From: a virus
Virus record (IMG/VR): IMGVR_UViG_3300046007_007581
Coordinates: 1-31,521 of that record
DNA: 31,521 bases
Reading direction: 5' to 3' (one strand)
The position numbers and the translations under genes are program-made. This document shows positions 8,414-31,521 of the stretch, one piece after another; position 1 is the first letter of the stretch, and each line of letters opens with the position of its first letter. A model generated the notes under the pieces. It did not search any database. It was not told where the DNA came from and saw nothing but the letters and a program-made list of their open reading frames with translations.

Positions 8414-10902
8414 TAACAGTCGCATTTAGCACCCGAAAAATTGACCCCCAATTTATAGAATTACTTAAAAGAACCTCAGGAATAAAAAATCTTGAGGTTC
8501 TACCTTTTGAGAACAATGGAGAATATTCATTGACTCAAGTTTATAATATGGCACTTACACAATCATCAAATGATATTGTTGTTTTGTGTCACGATGACCT
8601 TTATTTTGATAGTAATAATTGGGCACAAAAAGTTGTGAATCATTTCAAGAGAAATGAAGATTACGGTATTTTAGGTGTTGCCGGTTCTACCAAATTACCA
8701 AAGTCAGGGATGTGGTGGGAAGACCGTTCAAAAATGAAAGGTATTGTTAATCACGAAAGTGGAGGTAAAAAATGGGAATCAAAATACTCTCCAAGTAAGG
8801 GTAACGAAATTGAAGATGTTGTTTTAGTTGACGGACTTTTTATTGCCGTTCATAAAGAAAGAATCCAAGAAAACTTTGACGAAAATGTAAAAGGTTTTCA
8901 CTTTTATGATGTAGATTTTTGTTATAGAAATTTCCAAAAAGATGTTAATATTGGAGTGATTTATGATGTTAGAATTACTCACAAATCTATTGGTCAAACC
9001 AACCAACAATGGGAGGAAAATAGAAAAGAGTTTTCAAACAAATATTCAAATCAATTACCAATAAAAATTCTACCAAATTTGGATATGTCATCCAAACTTA
9101 AGGTGATGATTACTTGTTTGTCATTTAAGAATTTTACAGGTTCTGAAATGTATGTTTTTGAACTCGCCAAAGGTCTTAGAAAATTAAATTGTGAAGTTAC
9201 CGTGGTTTCAAACATTGGTGGACCAATAACTACCATGGCAAATAAACTCGGTATTAAAACTTTGGGATTCACAGAGTTCCCAGGATTTAAACTTGGTGAC
9301 GGAAAGTGGGGGTTTGATACACCACAAGGTGTTCAACCAAGTAACCCCGGTACAATGTATAAAGTATCTGACCCTGATTATGACATCATTCACGTACAAC
9401 ACAAAAACATTACGGACAAGGTTGTGGAGATTTATCCAAAGATTCCAAAAATCGCAACAATCCACTCTGAGGTTATTACACTTGAAAGTCCGGTAAAGGA
9501 TAAAACGATTGTTAATTACATTACTATTCGTCCTGAAATCCAAAGTCATATTGTTAATATGTTTGGAATTCCTGAGGAAAACACCAAAGTCATTTATAAC
9601 CCAATTGATGATACTCGTTTTAACACAAAAAACACCAAAGATGATGGTTACATTTTGTTTGTTGGTACCGTTGATTATTTGAGAGATAAAGCCATGACTG
9701 AATGTGCAGAATATGCAGAATCAATCGGGAAAGAATTGTGGATTGTTGGTGATATGAATGGTGGAAATATTGGTCACCTTTTGGAGAAACCATTCGTAAA
9801 GTATTTCCCCGCAACCAAAGATGTTGAGAAGTTTGTGAAAAACTGTTCAGAAACTGCAGGTATTCTATTGGGTCGTACAACCATTGAAGGATGGATGTGT
9901 GGTAAACCTGGTTGGATTTATACTGTAGACCCATTTGGTAATGTTATGACAACAGAAAAACATGAGGTACCTGAAAATGTGTCAAAGTATTCATCAACAG
10001 AAATTGTGAAGGAAATCAAACAATACTACATTGACACCCTGAATTTATGGTGGGATGAAAGAGAAGATAGTATTGAATCTAAAGATTTTAATAAGTTGTT
10101 CTTTAACGGTAGAAAGATTACACCAGACAACACCAAAAATTGGGGTGACCTTATCCCATATAAAATCCTCAAAGAGCTCTCTAAGAGTGAAAAACTGAAG
10201 GATTCACAGGTGTTTAACGTAAAGAACCCAATGACAAAATATCCTGTGATATCCACAGGTAGTGTAATGCACTTCACAAACCCAGAATCTATTGTTTGGG
10301 GTACAGGATGTATTGATGAAAAGATGGTTGGTCAACAACCCAAAAAAATATATGCGGTTAGAGGTCCGTTAACTCAACAAGAACTTGAATTGAAAGGTTG
10401 GGAATGTCCTGAGGTTTATGGTGACCCAGCGTTACTATACCCAATGATTTACAACCCCCAAGTTGAGAAGAAATATAAATGGGGTTTTATTCCTCACTAC
10501 ATTGAGTTTGAATCTGATTCAGATTTGGATGTGATTCACCATATGGAGAAACTTGGATTCCAAATTATTGATGTTTGTTCTGGTTCAGAAAAGTTTATTG
10601 ATGAGTTGTTGGAATGTGAGAATGTTATTTCATCATCACTCCACGGTCTTATCGCCGCTGACGCATATGGAATACCAAATGCAAGAGTTAATGTTTCAAA
10701 CAAACTAATTGGTGGTGATTTTAAATTCAAGGATTATTGTTACTCAGTTGAGAGAGAATTGGATTACGGTTATCAACTAACAAATGAAACAACTTTAGAA
10801 GATATTATTGGTTTACATTTCAATAAAACCATTACCTTTGACAGAGAGAAACTTTTGGAATCCGCACCGTGGAATTTTGAAGAGAATAAGGAAATTTTTT
10901 AA
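8410..10902 (+). CDS. Three-domain fusion: GT2-like glycosyltransferase, GT4-like glycosyltransferase, polysaccharide pyruvyl transferase
   Basis: The product has 830 residues in three parts. Residues 1-220 resemble a GT-A/GT2 enzyme of the StrF type: IVVLCHDDLYF holds an Asp-Asp metal site, and GFHFYDVDFCYR is the typical late motif. Residues 228-540 resemble GT4: KVMITCLSFKNFTGSEMYVF, then YDIIHVQH, VIYNPID, ILFVGTVDYLRDKA and RTTIEGWMCGKPG. Residues 565-810 match polysaccharide pyruvyl transferase: NWGD (577-580), GTGC (631-634), VRGPLT (650-655), GDPALLYP (671-678) and SSSLHGLIAADAYGIP (741-756). The last enzyme normally transfers pyruvate from phosphoenolpyruvate to a sugar as a ketal in exopolysaccharides and cell-wall polymers. 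The frame is unbroken and overlaps the HAD gene by 4 nt. It may build a short pyruvylated glycan; the acceptor is unknown. Confidence 0.88.
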   Translation: MITVAFSTRKIDPQFIELLKRTSGIKNLEVLPFENNGEYSLTQVYNMALTQSSNDIVVLCHDDLYFDSNNWAQKVVNHFKRNEDYGILGVAGSTKLPKSGMWWEDRSKMKGIVNHESGGKKWESKYSPSKGNEIEDVVLVDGLFIAVHKERIQENFDENVKGFHFYDVDFCYRNFQKDVNIGVIYDVRITHKSIGQTNQQWEENRKEFSNKYSNQLPIKILPNLDMSSKLKVMITCLSFKNFTGSEMYVFELAKGLRKLNCEVTVVSNIGGPITTMANKLGIKTLGFTEFPGFKLGDGKWGFDTPQGVQPSNPGTMYKVSDPDYDIIHVQHKNITDKVVEIYPKIPKIATIHSEVITLESPVKDKTIVNYITIRPEIQSHIVNMFGIPEENTKVIYNPIDDTRFNTKNTKDDGYILFVGTVDYLRDKAMTECAEYAESIGKELWIVGDMNGGNIGHLLEKPFVKYFPATKDVEKFVKNCSETAGILLGRTTIEGWMCGKPGWIYTVDPFGNVMTTEKHEVPENVSKYSSTEIVKEIKQYYIDTLNLWWDEREDSIESKDFNKLFFNGRKITPDNTKNWGDLIPYKILKELSKSEKLKDSQVFNVKNPMTKYPVISTGSVMHFTNPESIVWGTGCIDEKMVGQQPKKIYAVRGPLTQQELELKGWECPEVYGDPALLYPMIYNPQVEKKYKWGFIPHYIEFESDSDLDVIHHMEKLGFQIIDVCSGSEKFIDELLECENVISSSLHGLIAADAYGIPNARVNVSNKLIGGDFKFKDYCYSVERELDYGYQLTNETTLEDIIGLHFNKTITFDREKLLESAPWNFEENKEIF

Positions 10903-10903
10903 T

Positions 10904-11353
10904 ATGATATATTGGTTCACTGGACAACCCGGTCATGGTAAGACCGTTCTTAGCCTTTTGTTAAAGGGTTATTTAGAAAAAACTTACCACAAAAATGTCA
11001 TTCATATTGATGGTGATGATTTACGAGCAATCTACGAAAACAAAGATTACTCAAAAGAAGGTAGAATTAAAAACATTACCTTTGCCCAACAGTTGGCACA
11101 TTTTTGTAATGTAAAAGGTTTTGATGTTGTTGTTAGTTTAGTTAGTCCTTACAAAGAAGTTCGTGATGAATTCAAAGAAAAATTGAAGGGTAAAATCCAC
11201 GAGATTTATGTTCACACCACAGAAAAACGTGGTAGAGAAGACTATCATGTGGCAGATTACGAACCTCCAACAGATGAGTTTATTGAGGTAGATACAACCT
11301 ACGATACCCCCGAGGAATCATTAAGATATATTACAAGTGGGGTGGGTTTATGA
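10904..11353 (+). CDS. APS-kinase-like P-loop kinase (CysC family)
   Basis: The start is the ATG at 10904, right after the fusion gene's stop; the longer frame from 10808 would overlap it by 95 nt and lacks conserved residues. The 149-residue product has a Walker A motif GQPGHGKT (7-14) and IDGDDLR (35-41), matching the DGDNxR signature of adenylylsulfate kinases, followed by FAQQLAHFC, VVSLVSPYKEVR and a C-terminal YEPP-DEFIEVDT segment. True APS kinases are about 180-200 residues, so this is a short form. It could make PAPS, the sulfate donor, or phosphorylate another small molecule. No sulfotransferase or complete sulfurylase is visible here. It overlaps the next gene by 4 nt. Confidence 0.78.
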   Translation: MIYWFTGQPGHGKTVLSLLLKGYLEKTYHKNVIHIDGDDLRAIYENKDYSKEGRIKNITFAQQLAHFCNVKGFDVVVSLVSPYKEVRDEFKEKLKGKIHEIYVHTTEKRGREDYHVADYEPPTDEFIEVDTTYDTPEESLRYITSGVGL

Positions 11354-11700: not shown

Positions 11701-12088
11701 AAATATACATGTTCAGTCTTCTTTGGAAAGAAAAGACGGACAATTCGCAATGTTTGTAGGTAGATGGCAACCTCTTCACAAAGGTCATCAAGAATTATTT
11801 AAACAAGCAATGGACGAGGGTAAGAATGTTCTAATCTGTATTAGAGACATAAAACCCGATGAAAAGAATCCATTCACTGCTGAAGAAGTAAAAGAAAACA
11901 TCACAAACTTCTACTCACAAGAATATATTGACGGTAAAGTAAGAGTTATGATTATCCCTGACATTTGTTCTATTGAGTTTGGTCGTGGTGTTGGATATGA
12001 CATCATTGAGAGAGTTCCACCTCAGGAAATTGGTGAAATCTCTGCAACTAAAATCAGAGAAGAAATGAAACAAAATGGTCAGTTATAA
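11690..12088 (+). CDS. Cytidylyltransferase-fold nucleotidyltransferase, NMN-adenylyltransferase-like
   Basis: The start chosen is the ATG at 11690, which overlaps the HAD gene by 11 nt and gives 132 residues; an upstream frame from 11615 lies within that gene. The N-terminal motif FVGRWQPLHKGHQEL has the HxGH signature and closely resembles the GRFQPVHKGH of NadM/NadR-type NMN adenylyltransferases. The C-terminal ISATKIREEM matches the second nucleotide-binding motif (ISxTxxR). The enzyme would join ATP or CTP to a phosphorylated substrate. NAD salvage is one reading; making an activated sugar or alcohol with the adjacent kinase and phosphatase is another. It overlaps the DUF2061 gene by 14 nt. 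Confidence 0.8.
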   Translation: MWTKNIHVQSSLERKDGQFAMFVGRWQPLHKGHQELFKQAMDEGKNVLICIRDIKPDEKNPFTAEEVKENITNFYSQEYIDGKVRVMIIPDICSIEFGRGVGYDIIERVPPQEIGEISATKIREEMKQNGQL

Positions 12089-22991: not shown

Positions 22992-23396
22992 ATGAAACGA
23001 CAACTACACACTCTCAGAAGACTTATTCAAAAATGGTCAATATCTGCTATTAGACTTGTACAAGTACCCGAAAAAAAATCGGAATACGAAAGAGACGCTG
23101 TTAATATCTGCAAGAAATTAATAAAACTATCCGATTCAGTTTTGTTATTAACACCAATTAGTGGTAAAAGGTACATAACTCACGAAACTCAACAAATATC
23201 AATTATTTTATCCGCAAGTTCAATTCAAATCATCAATCACACCTATTCATATACGGTATTTCTTGGTGATAAAGAATGGCAAAAATTGATTGACTTCTTC
23301 AATGAAGAGGTTGAGGATAGACGAAAAGTTTTGGAAGACGAAATAACTTCAAATATTAAACATTCACTACAAAACATTTTAGTTAATATAAAATGA
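22992..23396 (+). CDS. Unknown protein, 134 aa, from a host-type promoter
   Basis: No family was recognised. The N-terminus is basic and helical (MKRQLHTLRRLIQKWSISAIRL). The centre is beta-rich (SVLLLTPISGKRYITHETQQ followed by ISIILSASSIQIINHTYSYT), and the C-terminus is a charged helix (KLIDFFNEEVEDRRKVLEDEI). It may be a small regulator or nucleic-acid-binding protein, but this is only a guess from shape. The next gene begins within its stop (ATGA at 23393), so the two form a unit driven by the host-type promoter rather than the late motif. Confidence 0.7.
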   Translation: MKRQLHTLRRLIQKWSISAIRLVQVPEKKSEYERDAVNICKKLIKLSDSVLLLTPISGKRYITHETQQISIILSASSIQIINHTYSYTVFLGDKEWQKLIDFFNEEVEDRRKVLEDEITSNIKHSLQNILVNIK

Positions 23397-24698: not shown

Positions 24699-24700
24699 AA

Positions 24701-24725
24701 AAAGGGGACCTTGTGGGTCCCCTTT
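24701..24725 (-). terminator. Intrinsic terminator after the major capsid gene (possibly bidirectional)
   Basis: AAAGGGGACC and GGTCCCCTTT form a perfect 10-bp stem around a 5-nt loop. On the minus strand it is followed by a run of seven T, typical of an intrinsic terminator for the capsid gene that ends at 24745. On the plus strand it follows the 72-residue gene, with only a short T run. Confidence 0.85.
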
Positions 24726-24744
24726 CTATTAAATCTGAGATAGA

Positions 24745-26541
24745 TTATCTCAATTCTCTCAAGTCGAATGTTCTAACACCATCAACTGTGATTCTACCAT
24801 AGAAACGGTTGTTAACCATTTTCTTAGCGTATCTTGTCATGATACCCTTGATAGGTGTAAAGTTGAATGGGTTATACATTGTAGGAGTTAATTGTAGAGG
24901 TACATACGGTGCGTAGATGTAACCTGTATCAAGTAACGATGTTCCTTTGTGTCCTAACAATACTTGGTTTGCTGGGAAGTAAGGGTCACGATAAACCTGA
25001 TATCTACCTGCCAATGTTCCAACTCTCTCAATACCCATGTTGTATTGGTCTTGCTCAGGAGCTGCGTTTGATACGTGGAAGTACTCCAAGTCATCAAAGA
25101 TAGCAGATACCTCAGAAGATACTACAATCCAGTTAGCCCCACCTCTAAGTGTAGACTTGTGGATTTGAGCTGAGATTTGGTTGATTGCTGTGATAAGAGT
25201 TTGGTTCCAGTCCTTCTGAGTGTAAGGAACTGCGTTAGCACCTAATCTCTTCCACCCGTTGTAGTCCCAACGTAAGTTCCAAGCCGCACCTTTTCTAAGG
25301 TCTCTTAAGATTTCACGGTCAATTTCAGCCGCAACTTGCTCAGATAACAAAGCTGTCAATTCAGCTTCAGCATCGATGTTGTGGAATGCCGCAACGTCTT
25401 GTGCCATTTCAGGTGACCATTGTGCTCTCAACTTTCTTTCAGTAACAGATACTGTTACAGACTGAAGGTCGAAAGATACTTCACCAATCTTATCTTCAAA
25501 TTCAAGATTCTTGTAAATCTTGTACTTAGTAACAAACGCATTGTTTGCTGCTGAAGAAGACGAGAATGGAGTACCACAATAACCGTCAATTGAGTTTGTA
25601 GAAACTGTACATGGAGTAGTTAAATCAACTTCTAAGTAAATTTTACCTTCAGCATCACAAGTGTCATAGTAAGTACCACCGTCAGTTCTAGAACTTGGGA
25701 ACGCCAAAGTTGTGTTAGTTCCGTATTGTACAATACCCTTACCATATCTTTGAGTTACAACTCTAAACAAGTAGTTGTTGTTTACGTTTGCTTGAGTGTA
25801 GACGTTACCAGATTTACCTCTGATTGTCAAACCAGCCAAGAAAGTTTCAGTATCCATAGGTTGACCGTCAGGACCGATAAGTTTACCAGCTCCCTGATTT
25901 GAGAAACCGGACATAACAACCAACACTTTAGTAGTTGCTGAGTTGTAAGCGTATGCTTCAGGTACCATAACGTCACCAACCCATTTAACAGTTGCGTTAT
26001 CTGAAGTGTATGCAGTCCACTCACCTCTTGAGTAGTCGTAAAGACCTGGTGGGTCTAACGCTGGTTCGTTACCTTCGTAGAACTTGTCATACAAGTCTTT
26101 CTGAATGTTTGGATTGTAACCACTGTTAGGTGTTTGACCTGAAGAAGCGTTAGGTGCTCCGTAAGGTGCGTAGTGTTGAGCGTAGTCTGCAGTTTCAACT
26201 TCGTATTCCTGAATGAAAGGAACGAAGTAAAACAACTTACCGATTGGAAGGTTCATTGCTTGAACTGAAACGATGTCGTTAGCCAAAAGTTTAGAGAAAA
26301 CTCTTCTTACAATTGGGAAAACTACAGTTTCGAAAGAACCTGAGTCAGCAGTTGTTGACGCTTCGTTGATGAGGTGAGATGCTTGGTTTTCATATAACTG
26401 AGCAACGTTCTCTTTTAGGTGACCTTTTAAGCCTTCTAGGAACCCTAATTTGTCCCATTTGTTGATTGTATCTTCTTTGATAACTTTAAGGTGCTTAAGA
26501 CCGATGTTACCAACAAGACCTGATTCTAATAATGCTCCCAT
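24745..26541 (-). CDS. gp23: Major capsid protein, gp23-like
   Basis: The product has 598 residues (T4 gp23 has 521). SFETVVFPIVRRVFSKLLANDIVSVQAMNLPIGKLFYF matches the start of the mature T4 capsid protein, and VLLGHKGTSLLDTGYIYAPYVPL with FTPIKGIMTRYAKKMVNNRF matches the C-terminal part. The gp21-type cleavage site is clear: HLINE/ASTTA, between Glu60 and Ala61, which would remove a 60-residue helical propeptide as in T4 (65). The additional length lies mainly in Gly/Asn/Ser-rich stretches at about 135-200 and 290-340, perhaps surface loops. The gene follows the scaffold gene by 34 nt and ends at a strong terminator. No TATTTAT motif was seen in that gap; AAAAAAAAACCAAATACTAA precedes the ATG. 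Confidence 0.95.
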   Translation of the reverse strand: MGALLESGLVGNIGLKHLKVIKEDTINKWDKLGFLEGLKGHLKENVAQLYENQASHLINEASTTADSGSFETVVFPIVRRVFSKLLANDIVSVQAMNLPIGKLFYFVPFIQEYEVETADYAQHYAPYGAPNASSGQTPNSGYNPNIQKDLYDKFYEGNEPALDPPGLYDYSRGEWTAYTSDNATVKWVGDVMVPEAYAYNSATTKVLVVMSGFSNQGAGKLIGPDGQPMDTETFLAGLTIRGKSGNVYTQANVNNNYLFRVVTQRYGKGIVQYGTNTTLAFPSSRTDGGTYYDTCDAEGKIYLEVDLTTPCTVSTNSIDGYCGTPFSSSSAANNAFVTKYKIYKNLEFEDKIGEVSFDLQSVTVSVTERKLRAQWSPEMAQDVAAFHNIDAEAELTALLSEQVAAEIDREILRDLRKGAAWNLRWDYNGWKRLGANAVPYTQKDWNQTLITAINQISAQIHKSTLRGGANWIVVSSEVSAIFDDLEYFHVSNAAPEQDQYNMGIERVGTLAGRYQVYRDPYFPANQVLLGHKGTSLLDTGYIYAPYVPLQLTPTMYNPFNFTPIKGIMTRYAKKMVNNRFYGRITVDGVRTFDLRELR

Positions 26542-26575
26542 TTTAGTATTTGGTTTTTTTTTATTTTTAGTTTAT

Positions 26576-28066
26576 TTACATTTTCGACATTAAATCCTTA
26601 ATTCTCATGAACTGAGGATTTTCATATGTCTTGGACTCAATCAAATTCTGTGCTGAACCTGAACTCATTGAATTGTTAACAGCTTTGTCAACACTTTCAT
26701 TGATGCTCTTAGCGTCAACTGAACCTAACTCGTCCTTTAGAGTTTTGTAGAGTTGTTTTGATTCTTTTAAAGTTTCTACAGAATCAAATCTTCTCAGGAT
26801 GTTTATTTTTTCTTTTTTGGTAGTAGAATGTTCTGTGAACAATCTGGTTGCGTAAGCCAAGTTTGAATTAAATACCGCAACTTCGTTGAGTTTTTCTCTG
26901 AACACATTCAATGCTTTTCTATACTCTTCGTTTTTCTCTCTAAGTACTTTCATTTCAGTTTCCAAAGCCCCAACCGATTCTACTTTTACACCATTGTTGC
27001 CGTAATTGTAGTTTCTGTTATTTGTGATACCTTTTCTCAAACCTCTACCTTCTTTAGAGCCCATTCCATAAGTTCTAGCAGCTTCTTTAGTTTCCTCTTT
27101 TTCGTAATCCTTGTAGTGTCCTTTTTTCTCACCAGCTTTCTTTTCAACACCATCTACATCCTTACGTTTGTATTCATGTTTTTTAGAACCCCAGTTCTCT
27201 TCCATTTCACCCTCTTTAAATTCGAATTTAGCTTTACCAGTTCCCATAGTTTTTGGACCCTCTTTTTTCTTTTCGTCGAAACCCTTTTTAGGTAATGTTT
27301 TACCATACTTAAATTTAGGATTTCCCATTCCAACGCCTTTTGGTTTTACAGTCATCTTAGCTTCTTCAAGATGGTAGTCTTCTGAACCCATTTCTTCCAT
27401 TTCGTCATATTCCATCATTTCACCATCTTCGTCTTCATCCGACATTTCGATTTCATAAACTACTTCCTCTTCTTCGTCATCCATGTGCATGTCTTCCATG
27501 TACATATCTTCCATTTCAGTCATTTCTTCATCTTCTTCGTCAAGTCCTAAAGCACTTAAAACAGCTTCAAGGTCTGTATCTTCTTCGTCCAACTCTTCGT
27601 TGAATTCCATAGAATCTTCCTCTTCTTCTGATTCATCTAACTTTACAATGTACTCAACATCTTCATCAGTATCTTTGATGTGTACGTCTCCACCGTCTTT
27701 TTTGACAATGATTCCGTCTTCTTCACCCATAGCTTTGAAGATTTTTAAGATTTCTTCGTCTGAAGCGTTTGTTAAATCGATGGTTTCCTCGTCACCCATG
27801 TCCATTTCCATGTCACCCATTTCCATGTCATCCATTTCGAGTTCACCCTCATCGTTATCTGCTTCATCGTCCATAGTCATGTCCAATTCTGCATCGACTT
27901 CAATCTCATCTTCAGTTTCCTGTTCAGATAAAGATTCTTTTACTAGCTGACTGATTTCTTCCTTCATTGTAGAAGCAAGTATTCCTTTTGCGTTCTCGGC
28001 TATAACATCTTCAACATTTTTCATTTGAATCAAAGCCTCTTCAACTAAATTTTTAGTATCTTGCAT
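26576..28066 (-). CDS. gp22: Prohead core scaffold protein, gp22-like
   Basis: The start is the ATG at 28066 (MQDTKNLVEEALIQ); the frame from 28099 would add residues from the promoter region. The product has 496 residues. Residues 1-48 are helical. Residues 49-235 are extremely acidic and Met-rich (MDDMEMGDMEMDMGDEE). Residues 235-360 switch to Lys/Gly-rich, probably disordered. Residues 365-496 are helical with coiled-coil character (LETEMKVLREKNEEYRKALNVFREKLNEVAVF) and resemble the C-terminal half of T4-type core proteins. Position between protease and capsid genes matches T4 gene 22, whose product is the internal scaffold degraded by the protease. It is about twice as long as T4 gp22 (269), mostly from the charged insert. 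Its own late-type motif lies 13 nt upstream, beyond two terminators. Confidence 0.85.
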   Translation of the reverse strand: MQDTKNLVEEALIQMKNVEDVIAENAKGILASTMKEEISQLVKESLSEQETEDEIEVDAELDMTMDDEADNDEGELEMDDMEMGDMEMDMGDEETIDLTNASDEEILKIFKAMGEEDGIIVKKDGGDVHIKDTDEDVEYIVKLDESEEEEDSMEFNEELDEEDTDLEAVLSALGLDEEDEEMTEMEDMYMEDMHMDDEEEEVVYEIEMSDEDEDGEMMEYDEMEEMGSEDYHLEEAKMTVKPKGVGMGNPKFKYGKTLPKKGFDEKKKEGPKTMGTGKAKFEFKEGEMEENWGSKKHEYKRKDVDGVEKKAGEKKGHYKDYEKEETKEAARTYGMGSKEGRGLRKGITNNRNYNYGNNGVKVESVGALETEMKVLREKNEEYRKALNVFREKLNEVAVFNSNLAYATRLFTEHSTTKKEKINILRRFDSVETLKESKQLYKTLKDELGSVDAKSINESVDKAVNNSMSSGSAQNLIESKTYENPQFMRIKDLMSKM

Positions 28067-28079
28067 TATTTTTTTTACT

Positions 28080-28086
28080 ATAAATA
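28080..28086 (-). promoter_or_regulatory. Putative late promoter (TATTTAT) for scaffold and capsid genes
   Basis: The minus strand reads TATATTTATAGTAAAA, 13 nt before the scaffold ATG at 28066. It lies right after two minus-strand hairpins, so the scaffold-capsid pair can be transcribed apart from the upstream head genes. Confidence 0.62.
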
Positions 28087-28103
28087 TACCCCCAAACAAA
28101 AAA

Positions 28104-28151
28104 AATCCATTTGTAAGGTTTCCTTATAGAAAAAAACCTAACAAATGGATT
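28104..28151 (-). terminator. Long hairpin, second of two tandem minus-strand terminators
   Basis: Arms at 28104-28121 and 28134-28151 pair over 18 bp with one mismatch, and the minus strand continues into a T-rich run (28096-28103). It lies between the 69-residue gene and the scaffold promoter. Confidence 0.7.
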
Positions 28152-28180
28152 AAAAAAAAAGAGTGGGATAACCCACTCTT
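28152..28180 (-). terminator. Intrinsic terminator, first of two in tandem
   Basis: AAGAGTGGG and CCCACTCTT (28159-28180) form a 9-bp stem with a 4-nt loop, followed on the minus strand by a T run (28152-28158). It lies just after the stop of the 69-residue gene and would end transcripts from the portal and protease genes. Confidence 0.85.
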
Positions 28181-28406: not shown

Positions 28407-29123
28407 TTATCTTCCCAAAAAATCGGATAATTTTTTCATTAAATCAACAGACTTTTCCATTCCATGACTATTTTGGTGTTGTTTTTTTTCCTCATCAAGG
28501 TTTTCCTCGTACTTGTTCCTATCATCAGGATTACTAAACAGGTATGCTCCTGGCGTTGATGGTGAAGATACCAAATCAAAACAGATTAATTCAAAATCTT
28601 CTTGAACTTCATTTTGTTCCCCAACCTTTTTTAAAGAACCCACTCCACGAGAAGATACACCCATAGTGACACCTTGTCTCATTAAGTTAGCTGCAATGTC
28701 CCCTTTGGTAGATACAATACCTTTTTCATGAAACCCTGGTGAAGTTAATAGTTTTAATTTACCCATAAGGATATTCCCATCCCACCATATGTCAGTAATT
28801 AAGTGAGATACTCTATCTAAATCAATTAGAGATGATTCAGGGTGATTTAATTCAGAGGTTGACAATCCTTTCTTGATTGCTGTTTTATATTTTTCAGATT
28901 CTCTTTTTAAGATTTTTTCAGGGTATACACGACCATTTCTATTTGGTACACCATACTTTTGTAATACCGCATAAAACTCGAATGGATTTCTATAATCCAA
29001 TTCTTTTTGTTCCCTTAATATTTCTGAATTTTTTGGGTCAGATGGAGAGACATATCCCGCATCCATTTCCACTAAAATACCTTTACCAACTTCACTGGCG
29101 TTTAAAATTCTATAATCCTTCAT
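28407..29123 (-). CDS. gp21: Prohead core protease, gp21-like
   Basis: The product has 238 residues. GVPNRNGRVYPEKIL (58-72) is the typical herpes-type/phage prohead protease segment. ELNHPE (91-96) carries the catalytic His94, GVSSRGVGS (155-163) the catalytic Ser, and FDLVSSPSTPGA (182-193) the Asp-containing strand. T4 gp21 is a serine protease that matures the prohead by cutting after (L/I)xE sequences in scaffold, capsid and internal proteins. The C-terminal tail (200-238) is charged and Gln/Lys-rich and may be auto-processed. A late-type motif lies 15 nt upstream. The position directly before the scaffold module agrees with T4 order. Confidence 0.92.
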   Translation of the reverse strand: MKDYRILNASEVGKGILVEMDAGYVSPSDPKNSEILREQKELDYRNPFEFYAVLQKYGVPNRNGRVYPEKILKRESEKYKTAIKKGLSTSELNHPESSLIDLDRVSHLITDIWWDGNILMGKLKLLTSPGFHEKGIVSTKGDIAANLMRQGVTMGVSSRGVGSLKKVGEQNEVQEDFELICFDLVSSPSTPGAYLFSNPDDRNKYEENLDEEKKQHQNSHGMEKSVDLMKKLSDFLGR

Positions 29124-29138
29124 TATATCTTTTATCTG

Positions 29139-29145
29139 ATAAATA
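29139..29145 (-). promoter_or_regulatory. Putative late promoter (TATTTAT) for the prohead protease gene
   Basis: The minus strand reads ATATTTATCAGATAAAAG, 15 nt before the ATG at 29123. The element overlaps nothing coding: the previous gene ends at 29151. Confidence 0.6.
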
Positions 29146-29150
29146 TAAAG

Positions 29151-29603
29151 TTATAGTATTGTTTGCTCGTTAGAGGGATTTTTAGTAGAAGAAAAAAGAA
29201 ATTTATTGTTTTTAACAATACAATTTTTGTAAATTTCTTTAATAATCTTTTTAACCGAATCTTTAACTTTTGGTGATTTAAAATCAATTTCGACTTTAGT
29301 AAACAAATTTATTTCTAAGTTCATAAAACTTTTTTTACCTACTTGGATTCCACTTGTTCTCAAATCTAAATCTACAATAAAATTTTCTTGAAAAATTTCT
29401 CTATTAAGACTTTCATATACAGAGTGTTTGATTTCTCTTGATAAATTACCTACTATTCGATTCCAATTTTCATATTCGTCTTTTGGTAATACCCACGTTT
29501 GTAAGTTTATGTATAGTGATTTCAAACTTTTAGAATCTACTGTACCGAATGATGTTTTTAACGAATCATATTGATTGATTTTTATTGTTTTTCCTTTTTT
29601 CAT
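29151..29603 (-). CDS. Unknown head-region protein, 150 aa
   Basis: No family was recognised. The protein is basic at the start (MKKGKTIKINQYDSLKTSFG) and contains SLYINLQTWVLPKDEYENWNRIVGNLSREIKHSVYESLN, a helical block. A beta-rich block follows (NFIVDLDLRTSGIQVGKKSFMNLEINLFTKVEIDF), then a Lys-rich helix. It occupies the place where T4 has 67/68 (small prohead core genes), so a core or head-assembly role is likely by position. The bS21 gene starts divergently 78 nt away on the other strand. No TATTTAT was seen upstream. Confidence 0.72.
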   Translation of the reverse strand: MKKGKTIKINQYDSLKTSFGTVDSKSLKSLYINLQTWVLPKDEYENWNRIVGNLSREIKHSVYESLNREIFQENFIVDLDLRTSGIQVGKKSFMNLEINLFTKVEIDFKSPKVKDSVKKIIKEIYKNCIVKNNKFLFSSTKNPSNEQTIL

Positions 29604-29680
29604 TAAGAAAATTATTATCTTTTTATTGTGTTAACAAAATTATAGGTGAATTTTGGTCTATTACCAAATATTTCTTGTAT

Positions 29681-29866
29681 ATGTTGAAAGTAGTAGTAAA
29701 AGGTAACATAGAGAAATCCCTCAAGGAGTTGAAGGGAAAAGTAATCAAAACTAAGCAAACAAAAAAACTCCTTGAGCTCAAGGAGTTTGAAAAAAAATCG
29801 GTGACTAAAAGACGATTGAAATTAATCGCCTCATATAAAGAACAACTTAAGAGTCGAGAAGAATAG
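29681..29866 (+). CDS. rpsU: Phage-encoded ribosomal protein bS21
   Basis: The start is the ATG at 29681; an earlier in-frame start at 29585 would read through the divergent gene's promoter region. The 61-residue product (MLKVVVKGNIEKSLKELKGK, then KQTKKLLELKEFEKKSVTKRRLK) fits bS21: a short N-terminal strand, then basic helices with the family pattern F-x-K-x-S-x-x-R-R. bS21 sits beside the mRNA exit channel of the small ribosomal subunit, near the anti-Shine-Dalgarno sequence. Phage copies are known from several marine and Bacteroidota phages. It lies on the plus strand inside the minus-strand head operon, with a 20-nt overlap at its end with the gene at 29847. This phage lacks Shine-Dalgarno motifs, so it may tune ribosomes to phage mRNA; that is inference. 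Confidence 0.85.
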   Translation: MLKVVVKGNIEKSLKELKGKVIKTKQTKKLLELKEFEKKSVTKRRLKLIASYKEQLKSREE

Positions 29867-30554
29867 ATTCCCCAAGTTGTTTCAATCTAACGTAATTTAC
29901 TTGGTCGTATTTTTCTGACTTAATTTTTTCAATTGTTTCAGAAATAGTTTTTACAACATCTCCTTCAGATTCGGAGTCTTTAACTTTATTTAATTTTTCT
30001 ATTGTAGATTCTTTGAGTTGTTCAAACTCTTTTTCCAAATCTTCGTTTTTAGATGCGATGACATGAAACACGTCTTTTTTAACATTCTCATCTAAATTCT
30101 CCAAATATTTTTGAATTGTTTGGTTTGCAATTGAAACCATTGATTTTAAAGGAATCTTTGCAACTGTCTCCGTAAGTTTTGGTTCAGATGTTAAAACCGA
30201 TAAAATCTTTTTCTTAGATTCAATTCTTTCTTGAATATTAATACTATTCAAATAAACCAAAATATCCAAATCTTTGTAATTGTTAGTTACGTTGTCCCCC
30301 TTGTTAGGTAACTTACTATTTTCAAGAATTTGTTTTATCAAAGAAATACCTTCTTCTAAATATTCTTTTGCTTCAACCTCAGTCAAACCTTTAGGTGTTG
30401 ATAGGTCGTCATACAAAGAGTATAACTTAGAGAATGATTTATTTTCTAAAATATTGTGTTTGAACTCCCTGAGAGTTTTTTTAAAATCGGCAGGGTTACT
30501 GTAAGATTCCAGTAAGTTTTTTTCGATGATTGATTTAATTTGTCCGAAAGTCAT
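29847..30554 (-). CDS. Head-region protein, 235 aa, helical
   Basis: The product begins MTFGQIKSIIEKNLLESYSN followed by FKKTLREFKHNILENKSFSKLYSLYDDLSTPKGL, a block I recall from neighbours of the portal gene in other T4-like environmental phages; the rest is helical (KKILSVLTSEPKLTETVAKI, then EKEFEQLKESTIEKLNKVK). N-terminal residues 14-16 (L-L-E before Ser) fit the prohead-protease pattern, so it may be a processed core protein. It follows the portal gene by 34 nt and has two overlapping late-type elements upstream. Its place corresponds to T4 67/68. Function unknown. Confidence 0.75.
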   Translation of the reverse strand: MTFGQIKSIIEKNLLESYSNPADFKKTLREFKHNILENKSFSKLYSLYDDLSTPKGLTEVEAKEYLEEGISLIKQILENSKLPNKGDNVTNNYKDLDILVYLNSINIQERIESKKKILSVLTSEPKLTETVAKIPLKSMVSIANQTIQKYLENLDENVKKDVFHVIASKNEDLEKEFEQLKESTIEKLNKVKDSESEGDVVKTISETIEKIKSEKYDQVNYVRLKQLGESILLDS

Positions 30555-30577: not shown

Positions 30578-30588
30578 ATAAATAAATA
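30578..30588 (-). promoter_or_regulatory. Putative late promoter, two overlapping TATTTAT elements
   Basis: The minus strand reads AATATTTATTTATGAATC. TATTTAT occurs at 30582-30588 and 30578-30584, 27 and 23 nt before the ATG at 30554. It falls in the 34-nt gap after the portal gene's stop. Confidence 0.55.
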
Positions 30589-31521
30589 TTACGAACCAAG
30601 TAACTTATCCAATTCCTCAGCAATTTTTCCTAAGTTTTGTTGACCAATACTTAAATCAATACTTTTTGACCCAAACATATCGTTTTCTAAAAGAATATTC
30701 ATTTCTTTTTTATTCATGGATTCGGGTGTTACCTCACCTGCTGGGGCTTCTGTCGGAGGGGCCGTTTCACCACCTGCTTCAGGTTCACCACCAAACTCAG
30801 CACCGCCTCCACCTAATCCAGGGAATTCTGCACCAACAGGTTCACTAACTTCACCTGGAGGAGCTGCGGGTGCTCCTGCACCTTCTTTAGTTCCATAAAG
30901 TTTGTCAAGAGTATCAAAGATACCTGTTTTAGGTATAACTGTAGGAGTATTCTTAAGTTCTTCACCAATTGCTCTTTCCATTCTCTGTTGCATCAAGTCT
31001 ACCTTGATTTCATCATCAGACCATCCAAAGATATGTTTCTTAGCCCATGTTGAAGATGCTGGTTGAATACCATTACCTGGGTCGGTAACAACATCTTTAT
31101 ACAATAACATTTTCTCTTTCCACAAATCAACTTTTAACAAGTCTGCTTGTGTAGATGGGTTTGTAAGACCTAAAGTAAAGTTTGAAATTTCTTCTTCAAA
31201 TCCAAGTAAGAAAAGGTGAATAATTGCAATCTTATTCAGCTCTTGTAACATAGACTTTTGGATTCTGTTGATAGTACGTGCAAAACGAATATCTTGAAGA
31301 GCCAACGATTTACCATCACCAACAACTTCTTCAAATCCCAAGAATGCTTTTGGAATTCTCAAAGCGGTAACCAATTTTTTCTGAATGTACTCGATATCGG
31401 CAATTTCAGAAAGGTTAGTGGCACCTGGTAATGTTTCAATAGGAGAAGGTTGTGCCGGGTCACGTACAGGAATAAAGAAGTCTTGGTCAACAGCCATTTG
31501 GTTGAATCTCAAGTCAACTTC
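30589..31521 (-). CDS. gp20: Portal protein, gp20-like (partial, N-terminus beyond window)
   Basis: The frame is open to the right edge, so 310 C-terminal residues are seen; the TTG at 31512 is not a start. QMAVDQDFFIPVRDPAQP, then IETLPGATNLSEIADIEYIQKKLVTALRIPKAFLGFEE, matches T4 gp20, where the same block reads ...EDYWLPRREG...TLPGGQNLGEI. LALQDIRFARTINRIQKSML and AIIHLFLLGF follow. The portal forms the dodecameric head vertex through which DNA enters. The C-terminal part is odd: a Gly/Pro/Ala-rich linker (about 205-258) and a small acidic helix (KIAEELDKLLGS). It is first in the T4-style head order. Confidence 0.93.
   Translation of the reverse strand, partial: EVDLRFNQMAVDQDFFIPVRDPAQPSPIETLPGATNLSEIADIEYIQKKLVTALRIPKAFLGFEEVVGDGKSLALQDIRFARTINRIQKSMLQELNKIAIIHLFLLGFEEEISNFTLGLTNPSTQADLLKVDLWKEKMLLYKDVVTDPGNGIQPASSTWAKKHIFGWSDDEIKVDLMQQRMERAIGEELKNTPTVIPKTGIFDTLDKLYGTKEGAGAPAAPPGEVSEPVGAEFPGLGGGGAEFGGEPEAGGETAPPTEAPAGEVTPESMNKKEMNILLENDMFGSKSIDLSIGQQNLGKIAEELDKLLGS

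Follow-up and report, generated by a model that had tools for sequence, protein, structure and literature searches.

Antisense bS21 genes in phages of Bacteroidetes have been described before. In freshwater Bacteroidetes myoviruses, Chen et al. (2022; PMC9723584) reported a bS21 gene lying antisense in the conserved region of TerL, portal, protease and MCP, flanked by two hypothetical proteins. According to the parts of that paper drawn on here, the region is not expressed as one operon, and bS21 is highly transcribed with structural genes including MCP, hence late; the bS21 phages belong to TerL clades a-e and have genomes of 293-331 kb. The same parts propose substitution of the phage protein into host ribosomes and point out a conserved aromatic at Tyr54. 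The bS21 of Pelagibacter phage HTVC008M was incorporated into E. coli ribosomes. In an E. coli system the ribosomes carrying it were ~5% active, their GFP output being ~5% of the control (PMC6375957). This bS21 is phage-encoded like the protein studied here, but of alphaproteobacterial type and from a Pelagibacter phage.

The stretch of DNA that we analysed (the window, 31.5 kb) is a fragment in which no TerL was recognised. Its phage shares with those of Chen et al. a Bacteroidetes-type bS21, the antisense position, two hypothetical flanks, a Tyr54-type aromatic and a diverged N-terminal helix, and relative to the described parts of PMC9723584 we see no difference in kind. The antisense arrangement was thus already published in 2022 and is not new here, so that the finding itself is no surprise. 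A terminator embedded in the bS21 codons, promoter-like motifs, junctions without bS21 and the missing Shine-Dalgarno (SD) sequence are not described in those parts of the paper, and these are the points that we add.

The bS21 gene and its neighbors

The gene and the head region around it comprise the following features:

29681-29866, plus strand: bS21 homologue, 61 aa, ATG to TAG, assigned by family profile
29847-29866, both strands: convergent 3' overlap of bS21 and the 235-aa gene (p235), exactly 20 nt
30589-31521, minus strand: portal protein (Portal_T4, E=4.6e-33), 5' end cut at the window edge
29847-30554, minus strand: p235, hypothetical protein of 235 aa, convergent neighbor between portal and bS21, no family match
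29151-29603, minus strand: p150, hypothetical protein of 150 aa, divergent neighbor of bS21, predicted alpha/beta fold, no family match
28407-29123, minus strand: prohead protease (Peptidase_S77, T4 gp21-like, E=3e-24)
24745-26541, minus strand: major capsid protein (MCP, Gp23, E=2.3e-72)

Searched alone, the phage protein just missed the curated cut-off of Pfam Ribosomal_S21 (PF01165; E=1.6e-5, 24.9 bits against 27 bits) and scored 17.1 bits against the 28.95 of NCBIfam S21p. Ribosomal_S21 was matched by 15 of 15 aligned relatives (best E=3e-10), and a PDB search with a profile of these relatives returned just two sequences, both bS21 of Bacteroidota (9i5v, E=3.6e-15; F. johnsoniae 7jil, E=1.2e-13). 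At the level of sequence the open reading frame is a genuine bS21 of Bacteroidota type, and we accept its membership of PF01165 through the profile. A preliminary description of this DNA had proposed a 61-residue bS21 homologue on the plus strand, of Bacteroidota affinity and with 20 nt of convergent overlap; all three points hold. The AlphaFold model is a single long helix (residues 10-60, pLDDT 91) for which Foldseek gave no match, and structure is therefore not discriminating as a test of identity. Neither bS21 nor p150 found relatives in public phage records, and Rfam gave no match near its gathering thresholds (three sub-threshold matches were taken as chance).

Comparison with host residues, as the preliminary description had advised, found the rRNA-anchoring residues and the aromatic at position 54 kept. 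K20, K22, K40, S42, R46 and A52 do not vary among the 101 distinct phage bS21 proteins, all of which have an aromatic residue at the Y54 position (Y in 90, H in nine, F in two); Y52 of the window protein corresponds to Y54 of F. johnsoniae. The phage protein has its sequence family, anchoring residues and aromatic at 54 in common with F. johnsoniae bS21 (7jil; PMC9976891). The first helix carries changes specific to the phage proteins, with T28Q in 101/101, D24I in 96/101, F23 replaced by V, I or L in all 101 and R21 mostly by S or G. In the window protein V, I, Q, G and K stand in place of F23, D24, T28, R21 and P41 of the host protein. This first-helix divergence agrees with what Chen et al. 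describe in the parts of PMC9723584 drawn on.

On the minus strand the T4-like head region runs portal, p235, (bS21 on the plus strand), p150, protease S77, a DUF4494-like 69-aa protein, a scaffold-like gene (labeled by position and composition alone) and MCP Gp23. The genes flanking bS21 had been called head genes, which holds for the region. The immediate neighbors have no family match, and the label therefore depends on portal and protease, the next genes outward. Comparison of families and structures gave no credible match for p235, and for p150 the fold comparison gave weak matches only, ferredoxin-like ones among them and none at E<0.001. p150 is strongly conserved, the most distant sequences of the aligned set still showing 57% identity, and is confidently predicted as alpha/beta, without a clear structural relative. 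Elsewhere in the window (10898-11350 and 11741-12085, plus strand), APS-kinase-like (E=3.5e-17) and cytidylyltransferase-like (E=9e-8) genes lie beside DUF2061 and near glycosyltransferase genes, a cluster that is possibly a surface-sugar modification set.

Scans of IMG/VR with bS21, portal and p150 yielded 265 loci, some of which share contigs. Wherever bS21 is accompanied by portal, p235, p150 or protease it is antisense, and the order p150 (minus), bS21 (plus), p235 (minus) is found in every locus with all three. Of 125 distinct relatives, 115 have a convergent overlap with p235 of 4-26 nt. Eight loci hold p150, p235, portal and protease and no bS21; their p235-p150 junctions are co-directional and 56-111 nt long, and that of locus L207 contains a strong head-strand terminator (AAAATCCCGATTCGTCGGGATTTTTTTTTT). 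Since such phages exist in the group, bS21 is not essential to them, and as p150 and p235 are both kept there, neither shows a strict link with bS21 among these loci; either of the two may be the bS21_CN of Chen et al. A quick, unrooted portal-plus-protease tree places the phages without bS21 in at least two separate places, so that the order of gain and loss is not inferable. The preliminary description had put bS21 inside one head operon, which did not survive: the stretch is not one operon, and bS21 sits at the predicted boundary of two transcription units.

Promoter-like motifs and the embedded terminator

The signals discussed in this section are:

30582-30588, minus strand: TATTTAT of p235, 34 nt before ATG
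29139-29145, minus strand: TATTTAT of the protease gene, 22 nt before ATG
28080-28086, minus strand: TATTTAT of the scaffold-like gene, late-type motif
26570-26577, minus strand: second motif AAATAAAC upstream of MCP, common to p150 in relatives
29660-29680, plus strand: bS21 leader ATTACCAAATATTTCTTGTAT, identical in loci L002-L017, without Shine-Dalgarno
29765-29788, minus strand: predicted intrinsic terminator hairpin inside bS21 codons 29-36, AAACTCCTTGAGCTCAAGGAGTTT, 10 bp, -12.3 kcal/mol
29764 down to 29755, minus strand: its T-rich tail TTTTGTTTGC, directly after the hairpin
24699-24727, minus strand: terminator match after the MCP gene
28159-28180, minus strand: terminator match after the 69-aa gene

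TATTTAT stands upstream of genes in 43 of 88 regions against 4.2 expected. In the 31.5 kb of A+T-rich DNA there are just nine copies on both strands, eight of which lie on the coding strand with a start codon 11-34 nt downstream. Among relatives it precedes p235 in 104/104, protease in 92/92, portal in 75/94 and p150 in 0/101 cases. The motif is a strong candidate for the late-promoter element of these phages, its reading as late being drawn from the genes downstream of it. In the gap between p150 and bS21, 60 of 125 distinct loci have TATTTAT on the strand of bS21, mostly 26 nt ahead of the bS21 ATG, and none of the 125 has it on the opposite strand. A good late-type motif was looked for in the window's own bS21 leader and rejected. 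The leader of this clade holds TATTTCT (29669-29675), which is one mismatch from TATTTAT, scores poorly and would be a weaker variant, a putative promoter at most. A host-type -33/-7 promoter for the window gene (TTG at 29626-29628, GAATTTTG at 29648-29655) was likewise discarded, having one mismatch and being lost in the nearest relatives.

AAATAAAC was found upstream of MCP in 46 of 69 and of p150 in 74 of 101 cases, and may mark another class of strong promoter or leader. MCP and p150 both lack TATTTAT; AAATAAAC was noted in the window (26570-26577) and in relatives L020, L023, L025, L029 and L031. Bacteroidota promoters are usually unlike the E. coli type, and TTGACA-N17-TATAAT is odd in such a phage. 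An E. coli-like TTGACA-N17-TATAAT precedes p150 in L251, L255 and L260 (at the p235-p150 junction, where bS21 is missing) and in L193, and at least 11 of the 12 TTGACA/TATAAT positions occur on the p150 strand of the p150-bS21 gap in 16 of 125 loci, against one in shuffles.

The element inside bS21 combines a stable G-C-containing hairpin with a following T-run on the same strand and is thus a predicted intrinsic terminator of the head strand. From position 23000 to the end of the window there are three strong minus-strand terminator matches, this one included. None of 2000 synonymous recodings of bS21 in phage codon usage equaled the native terminator. Each of the 17 nearest loci (L002-L018, 77-100% protein identity) has it; the stem is invariant and the loop comes in three versions. 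At codons whose amino acid is invariant in the window clade, synonymous variation was seen at 1 of 10 inside the element versus 21 of 27 outside (Fisher p=3e-4, to be read as a guide only, the sequences being related). The density of antisense terminator-like matches is 0.64 per kb in the bS21 genes of distinct relatives against 0-0.05 per kb in five neighboring genes, and of the terminator-like matches within bS21 genes 15 are antisense and 0 sense. Such a terminator would stop a transcript from portal and p235 before it enters the 5' half of bS21.

The window clade's palindrome also occurs in L162. The distant L291, L292, L298 and L368 have a different in-gene hairpin at codons 40-47, whose stem is altered on both sides in L368, from G-C to A-T. 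L193 and others have a head-strand terminator just downstream of bS21, not inside it. An in-gene palindrome as a feature of the whole family was rejected, as 100 of 125 distinct bS21 genes have no in-gene terminator that passes the filter; the embedded terminator is therefore a recurrent solution and not general to the family. At 28099-28150 of the window (minus strand) a long inverted repeat (ATCCATTTGTTAGG...CCTTACAAATGGAT) with a T-run behind it was noticed by eye, directly after the terminator at 28180-28159 and before the scaffold-like gene.

Proposed escape from host feedback and probable role of phage bS21

In Flavobacteriales, rpsU is translated by way of an extended SD by ribosomes lacking bS21, a form of host autoregulation (PMC9976891). 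We found an extended SD at rpsU in each of the 80 Flavobacterium-type loci, with a median pairing of -17.2 kcal/mol, and an SD in 24 of 30 loci of a phylum-wide sample, the six cellular bS21 genes without one lying outside Flavobacterium. Phage starts had been said to be without SD, and the 35 window genes agree, with a median anti-SD pairing of -1.0 kcal/mol versus -2.2 at random positions. Unlike host rpsU of F. johnsoniae, the phage bS21 gene has no autoregulatory extended SD: 0 of 125 distinct phage genes reach -7 kcal/mol. Because it lacks an SD, phage bS21 should be translated by the ordinary ribosomes that are replete with bS21, and its synthesis would be free of host bS21 feedback. A further step is tentative and, in our estimate, somewhat doubtful: phage bS21 could fill the ribosomes, hide the anti-SD and thereby lower host rpsU through the host's own feedback, so that the phage protein comes to prevail in the ribosome pool with no protease being needed. 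One cellular-genome bS21 of the phylum sample (L117) has no SD and some phage-like residues (KKSVEKR), and may be a second copy or phage-derived.

The reading that we favor, and think probable, is that a working bS21 is made late with the head proteins and fills or replaces bS21 on host 30S subunits, keeping them SD-independent while avoiding host feedback. A T4-like Bacteroidota phage would thus top up or exchange the bS21 of its host's small subunits. With the anchoring residues and the anti-SD-hiding aromatic kept, ribosomes would stay SD-independent, which would suit SD-less phage mRNAs, and the changed first helix on the mRNA side may tune mRNA preference. Having no SD, the phage bS21 mRNA would not be throttled as rpsU is, and a head-strand terminator, here within the bS21 codons, would limit opposing transcription. 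The antisense location would be possible because bS21 occupies the boundary between two head transcription units. Homology, conserved residues, the absence of an SD, the terminator-like hairpin, the motifs and the conserved position are read from the sequences; late expression is taken from related phages and ribosome entry from another phage's bS21, and 30S incorporation, escape from the feedback and any selective translation in the window phage are what we infer. The degenerate motif in the leader of this clade, the six cellular bS21 genes without an SD, the ~5% activity of ribosomes with pelagiphage bS21 and the phages of the group that lack bS21 speak against this reading. The earlier suggestion that replacing host bS21 could shift which mRNAs are translated stands in part: replacement is plausible and was already proposed, whereas a shift through SD-based choice is unlikely, since phage mRNAs lack SDs and the aromatic is kept in 101/101 proteins.

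Since ribosomes with pelagiphage bS21 were ~5% active (PMC6375957), phage bS21 might instead inhibit, entering host ribosomes and lowering host translation, and its strongly altered mRNA-side helix would fit. That test crossed hosts, however, the anchoring and anti-SD-hiding residues are retained here, and late expression with head genes, as given for related phages in the parts of PMC9723584 drawn on, is the wrong time for ribosome poisoning; we regard inhibition as unlikely. A role outside the ribosome, by packaging into the virion (suggested as possible by Chen et al. in the same parts of PMC9723584) or in head assembly with the neighbors, would explain why the p150-bS21-p235 position is fixed in all relatives having bS21. 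Against it, the invariant residues are the ribosome-anchoring ones and phages without bS21 still have p150, p235 and head genes, which leaves such a role rather improbable.

It had also been proposed that antisense head transcription may shut bS21 off late, which would make it an early or middle gene. The opposite strand and conserved 3' overlap invite this, but it is contradicted by the late bS21 RNA of related phages in published metatranscriptomes, from a region that is not one operon (PMC9723584, in the parts drawn on), by the predicted head-strand terminator embedded in bS21 and by the late-type TATTTAT that about half of the relatives (60/125) carry on the strand of bS21; we give the proposal very little credence. 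The in-gene hairpin could also act on the bS21 mRNA, in translation or stability, and not as an opposite-strand terminator: folded on the plus strand it reaches -13.4 kcal/mol (z=-4.3) and has an AAGGAG core. The T-tract, however, follows the hairpin on the minus strand only, terminator-like matches in bS21 genes are all antisense, and other lineages place a head-strand terminator downstream of bS21, so this too seems an improbable account.

The terminator predicted in the bS21 codons makes this gene a clear candidate for a coding sequence doubling as a transcription stop for the opposite strand, and a distant lineage has a second, unrelated terminator of this kind. From the contrast between an SD-less phage bS21 and a strongly SD-driven host rpsU one would expect the phage protein to repress synthesis of its host counterpart. 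Together, the points added here bring a takeover of Bacteroidota ribosomes by phage bS21 within reach of direct tests.
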